In this document: one piece after another, positions 8,038 through 38,775 of the stretch
Numbering within the stretch: the first letter of the stretch is position 1
Layout: each line of letters opens with the position of its first letter
Assembly: GCF_009805585.1 (NCBI RefSeq)
Contig: NZ_VHIN01000017.1
Coordinates: 62,001-126,000, forward strand
Length of the DNA stretch: 64,000 bases
Source of the DNA: Glutamicibacter sp. JC586
GTDB taxonomy: Bacteria; Actinomycetota; Actinomycetes; Actinomycetales; Micrococcaceae
Direction of reading: 5' to 3'
Position numbers and translations under genes: made by a program
The notes under the pieces: model-generated
The model's input: only the letters and a program-made list of their open reading frames with translations
What the model was told of the DNA's origin: nothing
Database searches by the model: none

Positions 8038-8862
8038 ATGCCCGAAGGTGATTCCGTTTATCGTGCCACGGCCCGGCTTCATCACGCGCTGTCAGGTCAG
8101 TCCCTGCTGTCCTCGGACTTTCGCGTTCCAGCCTTGGCCACAACAGACCTTACGGGTTATGTGGTGCATGAAGTCGTTCCTGCAGGCAAGCACCTGCTGA
8201 TGCGGCTGCATCCTCCGACGGTTGATTCCCCTGTGTTTCCTGCCAAGCCCCTGACCTTGCATTCGCATCTATTGATGGAAGGCCGCTGGGATCTCTATTC
8301 GCCCAACGAGCGCTGGAAGAAACCGGCGCACACCGCACGAGTAGTACTCAGAACCGATGCGGTCAGCGCCGTGGGCTTTGATATTGCACAGGTGCGGTTG
8401 GTGCCCACCGAGCAAGAAGCAGATCTCGTCGGCCATTTGGGACCGGACCTGCTCGGTGCGAATTGGGATCCGGCATTGGCCCTAGAAAACCTGCGCCGCG
8501 ATCCACACCAGGGCATCGGTCAAGCGCTCTTGGATCAGCGGATCATGGCAGGCGTAGGAAATGTGTACCGTTGTGAGATCCTGTTCCTGAGGCGTTTGTA
8601 TCCATTGACCGAAGTCGGGCAGATTGCCGATCTACCAGCGGTAGTGCAGATCGCCCATCGTCTGTTAAACGTTAATAAGGACCGGGTGCGTCGTGTCACC
8701 ACCGGCCAAGAACGCACCCGGGAACCACTGTGGGTTTATGGCCGCGCCGGGAAACCTTGCCTTCGCTGCGGTACACGTATCGAGCTGCTCAAGATCCCTT
8801 CCACACCGGAAGGCGCCGAGCGGGATTGCTACTGGTGCCCGCGTTGCCAACCAGCGGTCTGA
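8038..8862 (+). CDS. nei: Fpg/Nei family DNA glycosylase (Nei2-like)
   Basis: A bifunctional DNA glycosylase/AP lyase of about 274 residues that removes oxidised bases. The start is the ATG at 8038, preceded by GGAAG seven bases upstream. After methionine removal the protein begins with the catalytic Pro-Glu of the family (MPEGDSVYRA). The upstream in-frame GTG at 8032 would bury that proline and is rejected. The conserved lysine occurs in VVPAGKHLL. The C-terminal zinc finger is complete, with cysteines in KPCLRCGTR and YWCPRCQ. The MPEGDSVYRA opening resembles the actinobacterial Nei2 branch rather than Fpg (MutM). It is co-transcribed with lhr. Confidence 0.88.
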   Translation: MPEGDSVYRATARLHHALSGQSLLSSDFRVPALATTDLTGYVVHEVVPAGKHLLMRLHPPTVDSPVFPAKPLTLHSHLLMEGRWDLYSPNERWKKPAHTARVVLRTDAVSAVGFDIAQVRLVPTEQEADLVGHLGPDLLGANWDPALALENLRRDPHQGIGQALLDQRIMAGVGNVYRCEILFLRRLYPLTEVGQIADLPAVVQIAHRLLNVNKDRVRRVTTGQERTREPLWVYGRAGKPCLRCGTRIELLKIPSTPEGAERDCYWCPRCQPAV

Positions 8863-34724: not shown

Positions 34725-35048
34725 GATGCACTCTCCTCGTAGATCACTGACCTCGTCGTGAGAGGCCCCATGTGTTCACTCTCGCGCGATCTTCAACTAA
34801 ATTCAACGCATCCTGAGGATTCAACGGTGAGCGCCACCACATTGCAGTGTGATCTGCATTTTTTGCGGAAATTCACTATGAAGTCCGCATCTATTGCAAC
34901 GAGTCAACGTCTCGACATTCTTTTGTACCGTTGGACCACGTCAGACTCCTCACAAGAAGTCCGCACGAACAGCACTCTGCGTAGACTGAAAGGAAGCGAT
35001 TATTCATCTTTTACGACCAGCCATTTCAAAAGGATCACCACCACACAC
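34725..35048. other. Divergent region with a symmetrical repeat
   Basis: About 324 bases between dadA and the next gene. TGCGGA (34864-34869) and TCCGCA (34884-34889) form an inverted repeat around a 14-base centre, and the outer TGCA pairs on both sides extend the symmetry. It could be a regulatory site for dadA or its neighbour. The upstream open frame from 34758 does not look coding. Confidence 0.4.
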
Positions 35049-36257
35049 ATGGCCTCACGAAAACCAGCTAAGAAGAAAACCTCCCAGGGACACCCGGCTC
35101 GCCGGAAGGGAGCAAGCACCGTACCTTTCGAGTCAGACGTACGCCAGGCGCTGCAGCCTTTTAAGTCTCAGCTATTCCGCCACTTCCAAGAAGATGGGCA
35201 GTCTGCCAGCGATACACGCATGGCCATTGAAAGCCTCACCACTTTGCTCACCGTCCATGCACAGTTGCGCAAGAGCGTTGATGTGCAGTCGTTTGACCCC
35301 ACCGTTTTGGGTGAGCAGCTTGGACACCTTTCTTCTTTGGGCAAGGAAGTTTCAGAGGCGAGCGCTGCGATCCTCAAGCACTATCTGACCTTCTTGGGTA
35401 CCACTGCGAATTTCGGTGGCAGCGTCGAAGATTTCAAACAGAGCTTTGAATTCCTCTCACGGATGGCCGGGGACTCTCCTATCGTCGCGCCCTATCTCGA
35501 AGATGAAGAAGCCAATGGCTCGTTCGAATCCATGCCTTTTGTTTTTGCAGCCCGAGAACTCATCCAGTGGGTCGGCCAAGGGAAGCCAACGACCGCCGCT
35601 GGCGTGCTGACCGGTGAAACGTTGCAGGATGCCGCCGCTGCACTAGGCCTGTTCATCAAGGTCGATGACGACGCCGAAGTTACCGAGCATCCCGAGTGGG
35701 AGCCAGAAGACGGAACACTCGTCGCTTCGCTGGCAGAGGTTCCACGTCTATCCGCCTACTGGGACGCACTGATCGGGACAGCGTTACTGCGCTACCAAGC
35801 ACCTAACGCTACTCCAACCGAGCCCCTGAGCGACGCATTGTTGGCGACCAACGGCCCCGGCTCCCGACTAATCAAAGAATTAATTGCCGAGGTGCTGTTC
35901 TCACACATCCTAATCAATACTTTGGAAAAGCCTGGTCAAGCTCAGATCGCCGAAATGGTGGCGGGTGTTTTGAGCAACGCGGCATCGAGCAACACCGTTC
36001 GCACCGAGTTTGCCCTGCAGATCCCTACCACCGAGGATCTTCCAGAAGAGCAGCATCACCTGATTCCTCAGCTCGAAGAGGTTGTACCGCAGGTGGAATC
36101 CTTGTTGCGCATCTTCGAACGCGAAGGACTGGTTCAGATCACCGACGAGATCAACGTTCCTATCGTGCTGCGTTCTTCTCTCGAACGCGCGCTAGGCAAA
36201 GTTTCCGACCACGTTCTGAAATCCACAGCCGACTCCAGCGAGGCTGACGCGGACTAA
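35049..36257 (+). CDS. Large hypothetical protein, helical
   Basis: About 402 residues that I do not recognise. It has no signal peptide, no membrane helix, and a lysine-rich N-terminus (MASRKPAKKKTSQG and RKGAST) of the kind seen in nucleic-acid-binding tails. The rest is predicted mostly helical and acidic, with amphipathic segments such as VFAARELIQWVGQGK and LIKELIAEVLFSHILINTLE. The start is placed at the ATG at 35049, because the upstream open frame to 34758 has low-quality composition. A strong terminator follows. It stands alone, divergent from dadA. Confidence 0.7.
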   Translation: MASRKPAKKKTSQGHPARRKGASTVPFESDVRQALQPFKSQLFRHFQEDGQSASDTRMAIESLTTLLTVHAQLRKSVDVQSFDPTVLGEQLGHLSSLGKEVSEASAAILKHYLTFLGTTANFGGSVEDFKQSFEFLSRMAGDSPIVAPYLEDEEANGSFESMPFVFAARELIQWVGQGKPTTAAGVLTGETLQDAAAALGLFIKVDDDAEVTEHPEWEPEDGTLVASLAEVPRLSAYWDALIGTALLRYQAPNATPTEPLSDALLATNGPGSRLIKELIAEVLFSHILINTLEKPGQAQIAEMVAGVLSNAASSNTVRTEFALQIPTTEDLPEEQHHLIPQLEEVVPQVESLLRIFEREGLVQITDEINVPIVLRSSLERALGKVSDHVLKSTADSSEADAD

Positions 36258-36602: not shown

Positions 36603-37787
36603 TTAGAAGGGGATACTGGCCCTAAGGGTCCAAATTCCTTGCTCTTGGCTAGTTGAGAATTTTCCACCAAAAGCTCGCATCCTGTCAGCCATGCCAATAA
36701 GGCCACTACCACCAGCCGGAAACCCCGCCACTTTCTTACCCGAAACATCTACCTGATTAGTAATTTCTAACGATGCTTCGCTTCCATTTACAGCGAGCTC
36801 AAGAGAGCAGCGACCACCTGGCGCGCCATGCTTCAATACATTCGTTGTACCTTCTTGCATTACTCGATAGACCGCAGTCTGCGCCGAGCGAGGCAACTCT
36901 GAAATTTTTTCATCCGTGATGGAGGTCACGACAAAATTCGCGTCTTTGAGCCTTTGAACAAACAATTCAGCGCCTTGAAGCACGTTAACTGTGGTTGCCG
37001 CGGGCTTGTCAGTACCTTCTCCTGCGTCCGCGGACATCGTCCCATCGGCGCGTAATACGTTAAGCATCAAACGGAGGTCGTGCAATGTTTCGGAACTTAA
37101 CTTGGAGATGATATCCAACGCCTCAAGTGCAACATTTCCGTCATTGGCAAACTTTGCCGCCTTCGACTGCATGGCCACGATCGTAATGTCGTGAGCGACG
37201 ATGTCATGCAAATCGCGGGCGATATTCTTACGCTCCCGGTCAATAGATGCGCGCGTCTGCTCTCTCGCCCTTTCCACCTGCTCCACAGCTTCAGCACTTT
37301 TCTCGCGCAGCTGAGAGATACTCCGCGTCACCACATAGGCCATAGCCGTTAAAGGAATCAGCGCCACCAGTAAAACTGCATCCTGATGAGCCTGAAGTCC
37401 AAATTGAACCATCCAGGCAGCGGAGAGTGTGAGGAACAATCCACGCACGCTACGTGAGGTCGCAGTAGCCGCAAGGGCGGCAAAAATCATGAACGCGATC
37501 AACGTCCAGAACACCAGCACACCGTCATTCAGGAAAAAGAACGCGACCGCCACAAAGAGGCCCAGGGAGAGGGAGACCCAACGAAGCCCCAAAGCCAAGA
37601 TCGCGCAGAGCGCAAGCCCAATGAGTGCCCCTAGAACCGAAGCCGCAGGGGCTCCGCTAAACCCGTCTTTCAGGATCGTAATTACTTCACTGCTCGATAG
37701 AACAAGAAGAATCGCAATTCCAGCCCAAATAATGACACCCCGGCCAGCAAGGTGCTTGGTCAGGGTGCCCTTTAGTCGTTCACTCAT
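36603..37787 (-). CDS. NarL-type sensor histidine kinase, six-helix
   Basis: A 394-residue kinase. Six hydrophobic segments (about residues 17-35, 46-65, 67-86, 88-107, 115-130 and 137-153) with short loops form a membrane sensor without an extracellular domain. A coiled-coil and a HisKA_3 domain follow, with the phosphorylated H194 in IARDLHDIVAHD. The HATPase domain shows VMQEGTTNVLKHG (N box) and GSGLIGMADRM (G box). This multi-helix layout is shared with AgrC/ComD-like peptide sensors, although those belong to other HisKA groups. The gene for a small secreted peptide lies 46 bases upstream on the same strand, and the response regulator is divergent. Confidence 0.9.
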   Translation of the reverse strand: MSERLKGTLTKHLAGRGVIIWAGIAILLVLSSSEVITILKDGFSGAPAASVLGALIGLALCAILALGLRWVSLSLGLFVAVAFFFLNDGVLVFWTLIAFMIFAALAATATSRSVRGLFLTLSAAWMVQFGLQAHQDAVLLVALIPLTAMAYVVTRSISQLREKSAEAVEQVERAREQTRASIDRERKNIARDLHDIVAHDITIVAMQSKAAKFANDGNVALEALDIISKLSSETLHDLRLMLNVLRADGTMSADAGEGTDKPAATTVNVLQGAELFVQRLKDANFVVTSITDEKISELPRSAQTAVYRVMQEGTTNVLKHGAPGGRCSLELAVNGSEASLEITNQVDVSGKKVAGFPAGGSGLIGMADRMRAFGGKFSTSQEQGIWTLRASIPF

Positions 37788-37833
37788 ACGCCGAATAATT
37801 CATGGCATCGGCAGTCAAGTCAAATAAGACGGA

Positions 37834-38016
37834 TCAACCGCAACTTACGCCATAACGCTCGCAAAGCCATTTGGCGAAGTCCGTACTAAAACCTGCCGGA
37901 GTCGCGACGGAACCGGAATTGATCGATTGGCTCTGCGCCGCGGATGCGGGAGCCGCCACAGCGGTCAATGGTGCCAAAGCCAGCGCGGCAACAGCCAGCA
38001 TTTTTAAGCCTTTCAT
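37834..38016 (-). CDS. Small secreted peptide precursor, candidate signal for the adjacent kinase
   Basis: A 60-residue protein. A Sec signal peptide (MKGLKMLAVAALALAPLTAV, then AAPASA) should be cut after residue 26, leaving a 34-residue product. Its end reads STDFAKWLCERYGVSCG with cysteines at 52 and 59 and a terminal glycine. The two cysteines could form a disulfide loop of six residues. No immunity, modification or export gene is adjacent. It is transcribed with the downstream histidine kinase (46-base gap) and is divergent from the response regulator, so it is likely the signal or a regulated product of this circuit. The start is the ATG at 38016 with a GGGG upstream; the GTG at 38028 is less likely. 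An antimicrobial peptide is an alternative. Confidence 0.7.
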   Translation of the reverse strand: MKGLKMLAVAALALAPLTAVAAPASAAQSQSINSGSVATPAGFSTDFAKWLCERYGVSCG

Positions 38017-38100
38017 AACAAACCCCACATCTCGAGAACTTATATACTTTCAAGTGAGCAGGCCCTTTGGTGGCTTGCAGCATCGATCCAAAGGATTCAG
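38017..38100. promoter_or_regulatory. Shared promoter region of peptide-kinase and regulator genes
   Basis: These 84 bases separate the divergent genes. The A/T-rich block TTATATACTTTC at about 38040-38051 can serve as -10 in both directions (TATACT on plus, TATATA on minus). ACTT...AAGT half-sites around it and the palindrome TCTCGAGA next to it are candidate regulator sites. No strong -35 was found on either strand, as expected for an activator-dependent promoter. Confidence 0.4.
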
Positions 38101-38775
38101 ATGGAGCAGATTAAGGTCCTAATCGTTGATGATGAGCCACTCATCAGGCATGCGTTGGGGACAATCTTAGCAACGGATTCTGGAATTGTGACCGTATTTT
38201 CTGCAGAAAATGGACGGGCAGCAGTCGAGTTTTGTAATGACAATGAAGTCGACGTTGTTTTGATGGATTTACAGATGCCTGTCATGGATGGGGTTAACGC
38301 AACTCGCGCCATTAAATCACGTGAAGACAGCCCTGCAATCCTTGCAATTACGGCGTTCTCGTCGGATGACTACTTGGTGCCAGTGCTCACCGCCGGGGCT
38401 AGCGGTTACCTTGTAAAAGATTCTGAACCTTCAGAAATAATTGATGCTGTCCACGCAGTTCACCAAGGCACCGCCGCTATTTCTCCTTCCGTTTCTGCCG
38501 ACCTCATTTCGGCAGTGCGCGATGCCTACGTCGATAATTCTCAAGAGGTTGATGATCTCATTTATGATCTTGGGCTCACGAATAGAGAAGTCCAAATTCT
38601 AAAACTACTTGCTCAGGGATTTAATAATCCCGAAGTTTCCAAAACTCTAGGAATCACCGAAACAACTGTCAAAACTCATATGGCTAAAATCTTCGTCAAA
38701 CTTGGCGTCCGCGATCGCGTACAGGCACTGGTTGCTGCTGCACGCATGGGAATCGTCGAAATTCCAAAGGGTTGA
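38101..38775 (+). CDS. NarL/FixJ family response regulator
   Basis: A 224-residue two-domain regulator. The receiver has D10, D11, the phosphorylated D56 (VVLMDLQMP), T84 and K106. The C-terminal LuxR-type helix-turn-helix reads GLTNREVQILKLLAQGFNNP, then VSKTLGITETTVKTHMAKIF. All key residues are present. It should be phosphorylated by the divergent NarL-type kinase. The start is the ATG at 38101 with AAAGGA six bases upstream. Its third codon positions are visibly richer in A/T than the neighbours, like the kinase and peptide genes. Confidence 0.93.
   Translation: MEQIKVLIVDDEPLIRHALGTILATDSGIVTVFSAENGRAAVEFCNDNEVDVVLMDLQMPVMDGVNATRAIKSREDSPAILAITAFSSDDYLVPVLTAGASGYLVKDSEPSEIIDAVHAVHQGTAAISPSVSADLISAVRDAYVDNSQEVDDLIYDLGLTNREVQILKLLAQGFNNPEVSKTLGITETTVKTHMAKIFVKLGVRDRVQALVAAARMGIVEIPKG

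Follow-up and report, generated by a model that had tools for sequence, protein, structure and literature searches.

What is the role of a gene for a 60-residue, two-cysteine peptide that lies between a sensor histidine kinase and a divergently transcribed response regulator? The locus that raises this question is in a 64,000-nucleotide stretch of Glutamicibacter sp. JC586 (contig NZ_VHIN01000017.1, positions 62,001 to 126,000), the whole of which is called the window here. The peptide is found beside such a kinase and regulator in many relatives, and it is probably a signal for sensing their own kind. The features of the locus, in window coordinates, are as follows.

37834-38016, minus strand: two-cysteine peptide precursor gene, 60 aa, ATG at 38016, tail WLCERYGVSCG
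37939..38016, minus strand: putative signal peptide (residues 1-26, with A-S-A at its end), assigned by visual inspection of the sequence
37834..37908, minus strand: conserved C-terminal core VATPAG...C, residues 37-60 plus stop, with both cysteines, from the genus comparison
36603..37787, minus strand: six-helix HisKA_3 sensor histidine kinase, 394 aa, with a DesK-like core and key residues intact
38101..38775, plus strand: divergent NarL-type response regulator, 224 aa, with receiver and GerE domains by Pfam

The peptide stop codon is 46 bases from the kinase start, and 84 bases separate the regulator from the peptide start. The coordinates that an earlier note on this DNA had given for the peptide, the kinase, the regulator and both gaps were all exact. 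The order regulator, peptide, kinase is constant in 18 loci of the genus, and the same Clp-type ATPase gene adjoins. A Pfam scan of the window neighbours gave that ATPase (with an ortholog in locus L118), a 499-aa open reading frame and an FAD oxidoreductase. The 499-aa frame, at window positions 34758-36257 on the far side of the kinase, has no Pfam family.

The kinase and regulator

The Pfam matches are all above cut-off, with HisKA_3 at 56.4 bits in the kinase, and Response_reg at 104.4 and GerE at 65 in the regulator; the pair is a NarL-type two-component system. The key residues of the kinase had been described as intact, and H194, N316, G362, G374 and G375 are indeed invariant among the relatives aligned. 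Also borne out, by an AlphaFold2 model, is the description of a kinase with six membrane helices and no extracellular domain: helices are predicted at residues 16-41, 48-66, 71-85, 89-107, 112-132 and from 134 onward, with mean pLDDT of 77-92 per ten-residue block over residues 11 to 160. A fold search puts the kinase core nearest to DesK, in a match to the cytoplasmic part only. The membrane domain is more variable than the catalytic part, with a mean distance of 0.46 versus 0.27. In partial Mantel tests, the mature peptide scored r 0.27 (p 0.01) against the membrane domain and the signal peptide scored r 0.22 (p 0.04). Covariation of peptide and kinase was accordingly rejected as support, being weak and non-specific in that the signal peptide covaries too.

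The peptide gene and its product

Peptide and kinase are present in 18 of 18 Glutamicibacter genomes. A comparison of 153 pairs, in which dS is near saturation, puts dN/dS at about 0.09 for the signal peptide, 0.56 for the linker and about 0.11 for the C-terminal core; third codon positions are the most variable in all three segments, least clearly in the linker. Full presence in the genus together with these codon-position and dN/dS signs of coding takes the 60-residue frame beyond chance; it is a real coding gene under purifying selection. The core consensus is approximately VATPAG-W/F-G-x-D-F-x-x-W-x-C-x-x-Y-G-x-x-C, and a mature peptide of 34 residues would follow from a putative AxA-type site after residue 26. 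A structure model of the peptide has low confidence (mean pLDDT 60.8) and places a helix at 43-55. No Pfam family was assigned to the window peptide, and plasmid and phage records contain nothing similar to it at E up to 1. For six peptides drawn from as many genera, Pfam gave nothing up to E 1 and NCBIfam nothing above its cut-off.

For the anatomy of the family, we compiled 48 peptides, with starts chosen manually: those of 43 kinase-drawn divergent loci, of L168 and L171, and of 3 loci from the order-level survey (see below). The list was selected for a C-terminal cysteine pair, so the pair itself is not an independent finding. What does count as independent is that it sits so near the end and is joined by no other cysteine: the last cysteine is within two residues of the end in 47 of 48, and the presumed mature part has exactly two cysteines in 48 of 48. 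Cysteine spacing is x6 in 31 peptides, x5 in 6, x8 in 6, x7 in 2, x9 in 2 and x10 in 1. The peptides diverge strongly between genera, and the terminal C-x5-10-C persists. In 42 of 48, residues 17-44 contain a site that loosely resembles AxA ([AVSGTC]-x-A). Six Nesterenkonia peptides (L146, L147, L152, L153, L155, L157) have a long N-terminal hydrophobic stretch with no AxA-like site, and these may be anchored in the membrane. Several of these six have upstream inverted repeats, such as GCCTAAATCTAGGC.

Distribution beyond the genus

A full-peptide profile found 38 of 395 family genomes at E 5.3e-7 or better, and most of the weaker family matches among those listed cover mainly the signal part. 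The same profile at class level gave, besides the window's own, listed matches of E 1.1e-5 or weaker, again mostly to the signal part. Among 20 family and class match regions examined, 18 (G020 and G684 among them) have regulator on the minus strand and peptide and kinase on the plus strand; in G684, the one class-level match followed, which belongs to another family, this gene order is present and the kinase is a weak match (3.4e-17). Two doubtful family matches, L116 and L117, were rejected, with no kinase or regulator seen there and with L117 being a 4.1-kb contig.

A set drawn by the kinase alone is blind to the peptide. Its 80 named loci, the best 80 of 288, have the regulator divergent upstream in 60, downstream in 17 and, by the rule applied, in neither position in 3 (L144, L168, L171). 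The candidate rule, the same for all loci, was a frame of 38-110 aa with an N-terminal hydrophobic stretch and a C-terminal C-x4-10-C. Under this rule, whose cysteine spacing was widened after the Nesterenkonia peptides had been seen, a candidate is present in 43 of the 60 divergent loci, 0 of the 17 regulator-downstream loci and 2 of the 3 others (L168 and L171), compared with 67 of 1200 shuffled gaps (5.6%). Every one of the 22 loci in the Glutamicibacter and Paeniglutamicibacter groups (L118-L139) has a candidate, as do 21 of the 38 other divergent loci; among the genera represented are Paeniglutamicibacter, Micrococcus, Citricoccus, Kocuria, Rothia and Nesterenkonia. One locus, L170, has two candidates, of which one is probably spurious. 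At L171, from Arthrobacter, no regulator was found at the threshold used. On a tree of 77 kinases, which leaves out L144, L188 and L197, 4 changes suffice for the peptide label (45 rows), whereas shuffled labels need 24.7 on average and 0 of 500 shuffles come as low. At order level, 28 loci (L200-L227, from 297 genomes) were examined; 9 have clear divergent regulators, and 3 of these have a candidate (L202, L203 and L208, in two other families), as compared with 0 of the 19 remaining loci. The outer neighbours of the unit differ between several genera. Co-occurrence of the peptide with the kinase and a divergent NarL-type regulator, as the earlier note had proposed, is thus strongly supported by 18 of 18 genus genomes and 43 of 60 kinase-drawn divergent loci.

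The 17 divergent loci with no candidate are 12 from Nesterenkonia, 3 from Microbacterium, L176 from Ornithinimicrobium and L197 from a MAG. Absence of the peptide beside kinases of relatives had been named in advance as an observation that would count against the idea; it is seen outside the genus (the 12 Nesterenkonia loci, the 3 Microbacterium loci and L176 versus L177), while within the genus no peptide is missing. The twelve peptide-less Nesterenkonia kinases belong to one kinase clade. In the nine of these loci that were inspected, the open kinase frame starts at most about 160 bases from the regulator start, which leaves little room for a peptide. Three of the 12 loci are from genomes with a second, peptide-bearing unit (L141/L168, L148/L170 and L149/L175). 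In Nesterenkonia cremea (NZ_BMIS01000007.1), the unit with no peptide gene in its gap, L148, and the unit with one, L170, are about 6 kb apart. The Ornithinimicrobium kinases of L176 and L177 are nearly identical, and the frame in L176 continues differently, so that only L177 of these near-twins ends in the cysteine pair, making the Ornithinimicrobium case doubtful.

Regulatory DNA

Two blocks stand out in the genus alignment.

38038..38054, minus strand: CTTGAAAGTATATAAGT, a conserved block that lies 21 bases upstream of the peptide ATG
37795..37823, minus strand: TTGACT (37818-37823), a 17-base spacer and AATTAT (37795-37800), directly before the kinase ATG

The first belongs to a GTATATAAG-like block that is conserved before the peptide start in the genus, and 38038-38054 is probably the -10 and activator region of the peptide promoter. 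A search of the 18 genus genomes with the block, aimed at a wider regulon, gave no match in three of them and 24 matches overall, 12 at the peptide promoter and 12 at a recurrent near-match, CCTTAAAGTATGTAAGT, located elsewhere; the wider regulon was rejected. The TTGACT with AATTAT or a variant of it is found in 16 of 18 genus loci (absent in L017 and L018), and 37795-37823 is probably a separate kinase promoter, giving a leaderless transcript that starts at or next to the start codon. As the kinase seems to own a conserved promoter, autoinduction would act on the peptide first.

Antibiotic clusters beside the unit

Flanks were partly scanned by Pfam at 16 loci, with L165 read from its list of open reading frames. 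Azole-RiPP clusters adjoin 4 loci, three of them with thiopeptide precursors (two in Kocuria, one in Nesterenkonia); the 4 is not a frequency, since the choice of the Kocuria genomes was prompted by a dehydratase already noticed in them. That lanthipeptide-type dehydratase is encoded beyond the regulator in Kocuria atrinae and Kocuria sp. cx-455 and is the sole PF14028 copy in each genome. The cx-455 cluster also encodes an ABC transporter, an M50-type protease and nitroreductase/SagB-like proteins (SagB below cut-off), as well as YcaO/SagD and a leader-binding protein that both pass the cut-off. Its precursor is over the cut-off of NF033482, the thiocillin family, at 3.4e-14, and the matching precursor in K. 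atrinae scores 1.2e-14. The cx-455 thiopeptide-type cluster is tail to tail with the regulator of the unit, and K. atrinae has its counterparts of the precursor and the dehydratase (L230:4948-17509 and L231).

Downstream of the kinase in Nesterenkonia alkaliphila, on one strand, are YcaO/SagD, a leader-binding protein, a SagB-like protein (below cut-off) and a thiocillin-type precursor (1.1e-17), with a thiopeptide-type protein (2.8e-22) further on. This thiopeptide-type cluster occupies L236:2923-12850, directly downstream of peptide and kinase, and its precursor is at 8140-8304 on the minus strand. In Arthrobacter sp. H35-D1, the genes after peptide and kinase encode an ABC ATPase, YcaO (PF02624 over cut-off, the SagD model below), a leader-binding protein (below) and SagB (over); no azole-RiPP precursor was found at this locus.

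YcaO is present in 4 of 14 genomes searched, with 2 of 5 copies at the peptide locus. In Glutamicibacter, one of 18 genomes has YcaO over cut-off, about 426 kb from its peptide locus, and the genome of the window lacks it. An operator shared by the peptide and thiopeptide-precursor promoters of Kocuria was sought and rejected, the best scores being within the range of shuffled sequences. A pattern built from two L231 sites fared similarly, being exact once in L230 and giving 6 matches with up to 3 mismatches versus 3.5 expected.

Interpretation

The reading we favour, and hold to be somewhat probable, is an undescribed family of Sec-exported pheromones with a six-helix receptor, read by NarL-type pairs. 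The 60-residue precursor would be exported via the general Sec pathway, cut after ASA and released. Its two-cysteine C-terminal segment, probably closed as a disulfide ring, would bind the six-helix membrane domain of the adjacent kinase as a ligand outside the cell, and the kinase would phosphorylate the NarL-type regulator. The regulator would act at the peptide's own promoter, in a positive feedback amounting to autoinduction, and at other targets; in two Kocuria, a Nesterenkonia and an Arthrobacter, the likely targets would be the neighbouring azole-peptide antibiotic genes. What argues for a pheromone is the presence in 18 of 18 genus genomes, the 43 of 60 divergent loci versus 67 of 1200 shuffled gaps and 0 of 17 regulator-downstream loci, the kinase-tree label, the purifying selection, the divergence of the peptide about a constant cysteine end, the variability of the membrane domain and the four azole-RiPP neighbours. 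The antibiotic clusters beside these four relatives fit a pheromone. On the other side are the 17 of 60 divergent loci with no candidate, the L176 and L177 pair, the non-specific covariation, the lack of YcaO in the window's genome, the six Nesterenkonia peptides with no AxA-like site, the Kocuria operator lead that was not above chance and the regulator not found at L171.

The main rival is a feedback modulator of the MgrB kind. Here, the peptide would be induced by the regulator, stay at the membrane or wall of the cell that made it, and damp or, through the cysteine pair, redox-tune the adjacent kinase, whose true stimulus would be something else, for instance membrane state as for DesK. 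A precedent, listed among the references of PMC8534201, is the feedback of a membrane peptide on PhoQ, and MgrB contains cysteines. A kinase core nearest to DesK, the possibly anchored peptides of Nesterenkonia and the existence of kinases with no detectable peptide, which can probably sense without one, all point in this direction. What tells against it is that 42 of 48 peptides carry an AxA-like site, loosely defined, and that the strong divergence between genera and the antibiotic neighbours at four loci are a better fit to a pheromone. We consider such a modulator unlikely, if still a serious contender.

Considerably less probable is that the peptide is an antimicrobial or another secreted effector under control of the kinase rather than its ligand. 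It is short and export-like with two cysteines, and residues 1-48 resemble lactococcin 972 below the cut-off (14 bits where 32.1 are required, E 0.046). Against this, the Pfam scan of the window neighbours revealed no gene for immunity or transport, and 3 of the 4 antibiotic clusters have a different precursor of their own. That a conserved small secreted protein merely happens to sit between regulator and kinase is very improbable. The conserved gene order around the unit makes linkage alone weak evidence within the genus, but several other genera retain the unit amid outer genes that differ, and the peptide label follows the kinase tree.

The pheromone reading can be extended to a Micrococcales-wide class, to which we would give an even chance: Sec-exported peptides with a C-terminal disulfide ring and no dedicated processing or export genes, sensed by six-helix DesK-like kinases with divergent NarL-type regulators, with specificities that differ by genus, and wired in several lineages to thiopeptide or azole-peptide production. 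Cell-cell signalling in Actinobacteria is little known; according to one survey, quorum sensing is reported in only 25 of 342 genera, nine of these with experimental evidence (PMC4748050). If the pheromone reading is true, so simple an architecture would provide testable signals in genera including Glutamicibacter, Micrococcus, Kocuria and Rothia; it might also offer a way to switch on thiopeptide clusters.

Relation to known systems

A search by title and the start of the abstract, with most subscription journals and preprints outside its scope, found no published system of this kind. ComQXPA of Bacillus is alike in having a peptide gene by a multi-helix NarL-family kinase and a GerE-type regulator, and ComX and the ComP membrane domain vary most within it (PMC4008528, PMC8895600). 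ComX is isoprenylated by ComQ, the four genes are on one strand, and the census has none outside Firmicutes (PMC4008528). Here, by contrast, there is a Sec-like leader and a cysteine pair, the regulator is divergent rather than on one strand, and no ComQ-like gene was found among the window neighbours scanned by Pfam.

Agr needs AgrB and a LytTR regulator, whereas the regulator here is of the GerE type; AgrB (PF04647) was found in 0 of 18 genus genomes, in a search for which control genomes gave one sub-cutoff match only. The likeness to Agr and Fsr (AgrC-AIP, FsrC-GBAP) is in AgrC, which has six helices and no extracellular domain and which senses a ring-shaped peptide (PMC8534201). Double-glycine pheromones (ComC/BlpC, GSP) are secreted, sensed by a kinase and induce bacteriocin genes, and their leader is cut by an ABC transporter (PMC8545107). 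The peptide here is likewise presumed to be secreted and sensed by a kinase, but its leader reads from the sequences as AxA-type, and no such transporter is in the unit.

MgrB is a small exported peptide with cysteines acting on the kinase PhoQ; it is uncleaved and its gene is outside the regulator-kinase gap, whereas the peptide gene here is inside that gap. DesK-DesR shares the HisKA_3 kinase core and the lack of an extracellular domain, and no peptide partner is known for DesK. DesK senses low temperature with five helices and no extracellular domain (PMC8534201), as against the six helices predicted here. ComQXPA, Agr and the double-glycine systems each fail a tested defining feature; the reading that stands is of a unit that would work like a peptide quorum sensor without belonging to any of these three.
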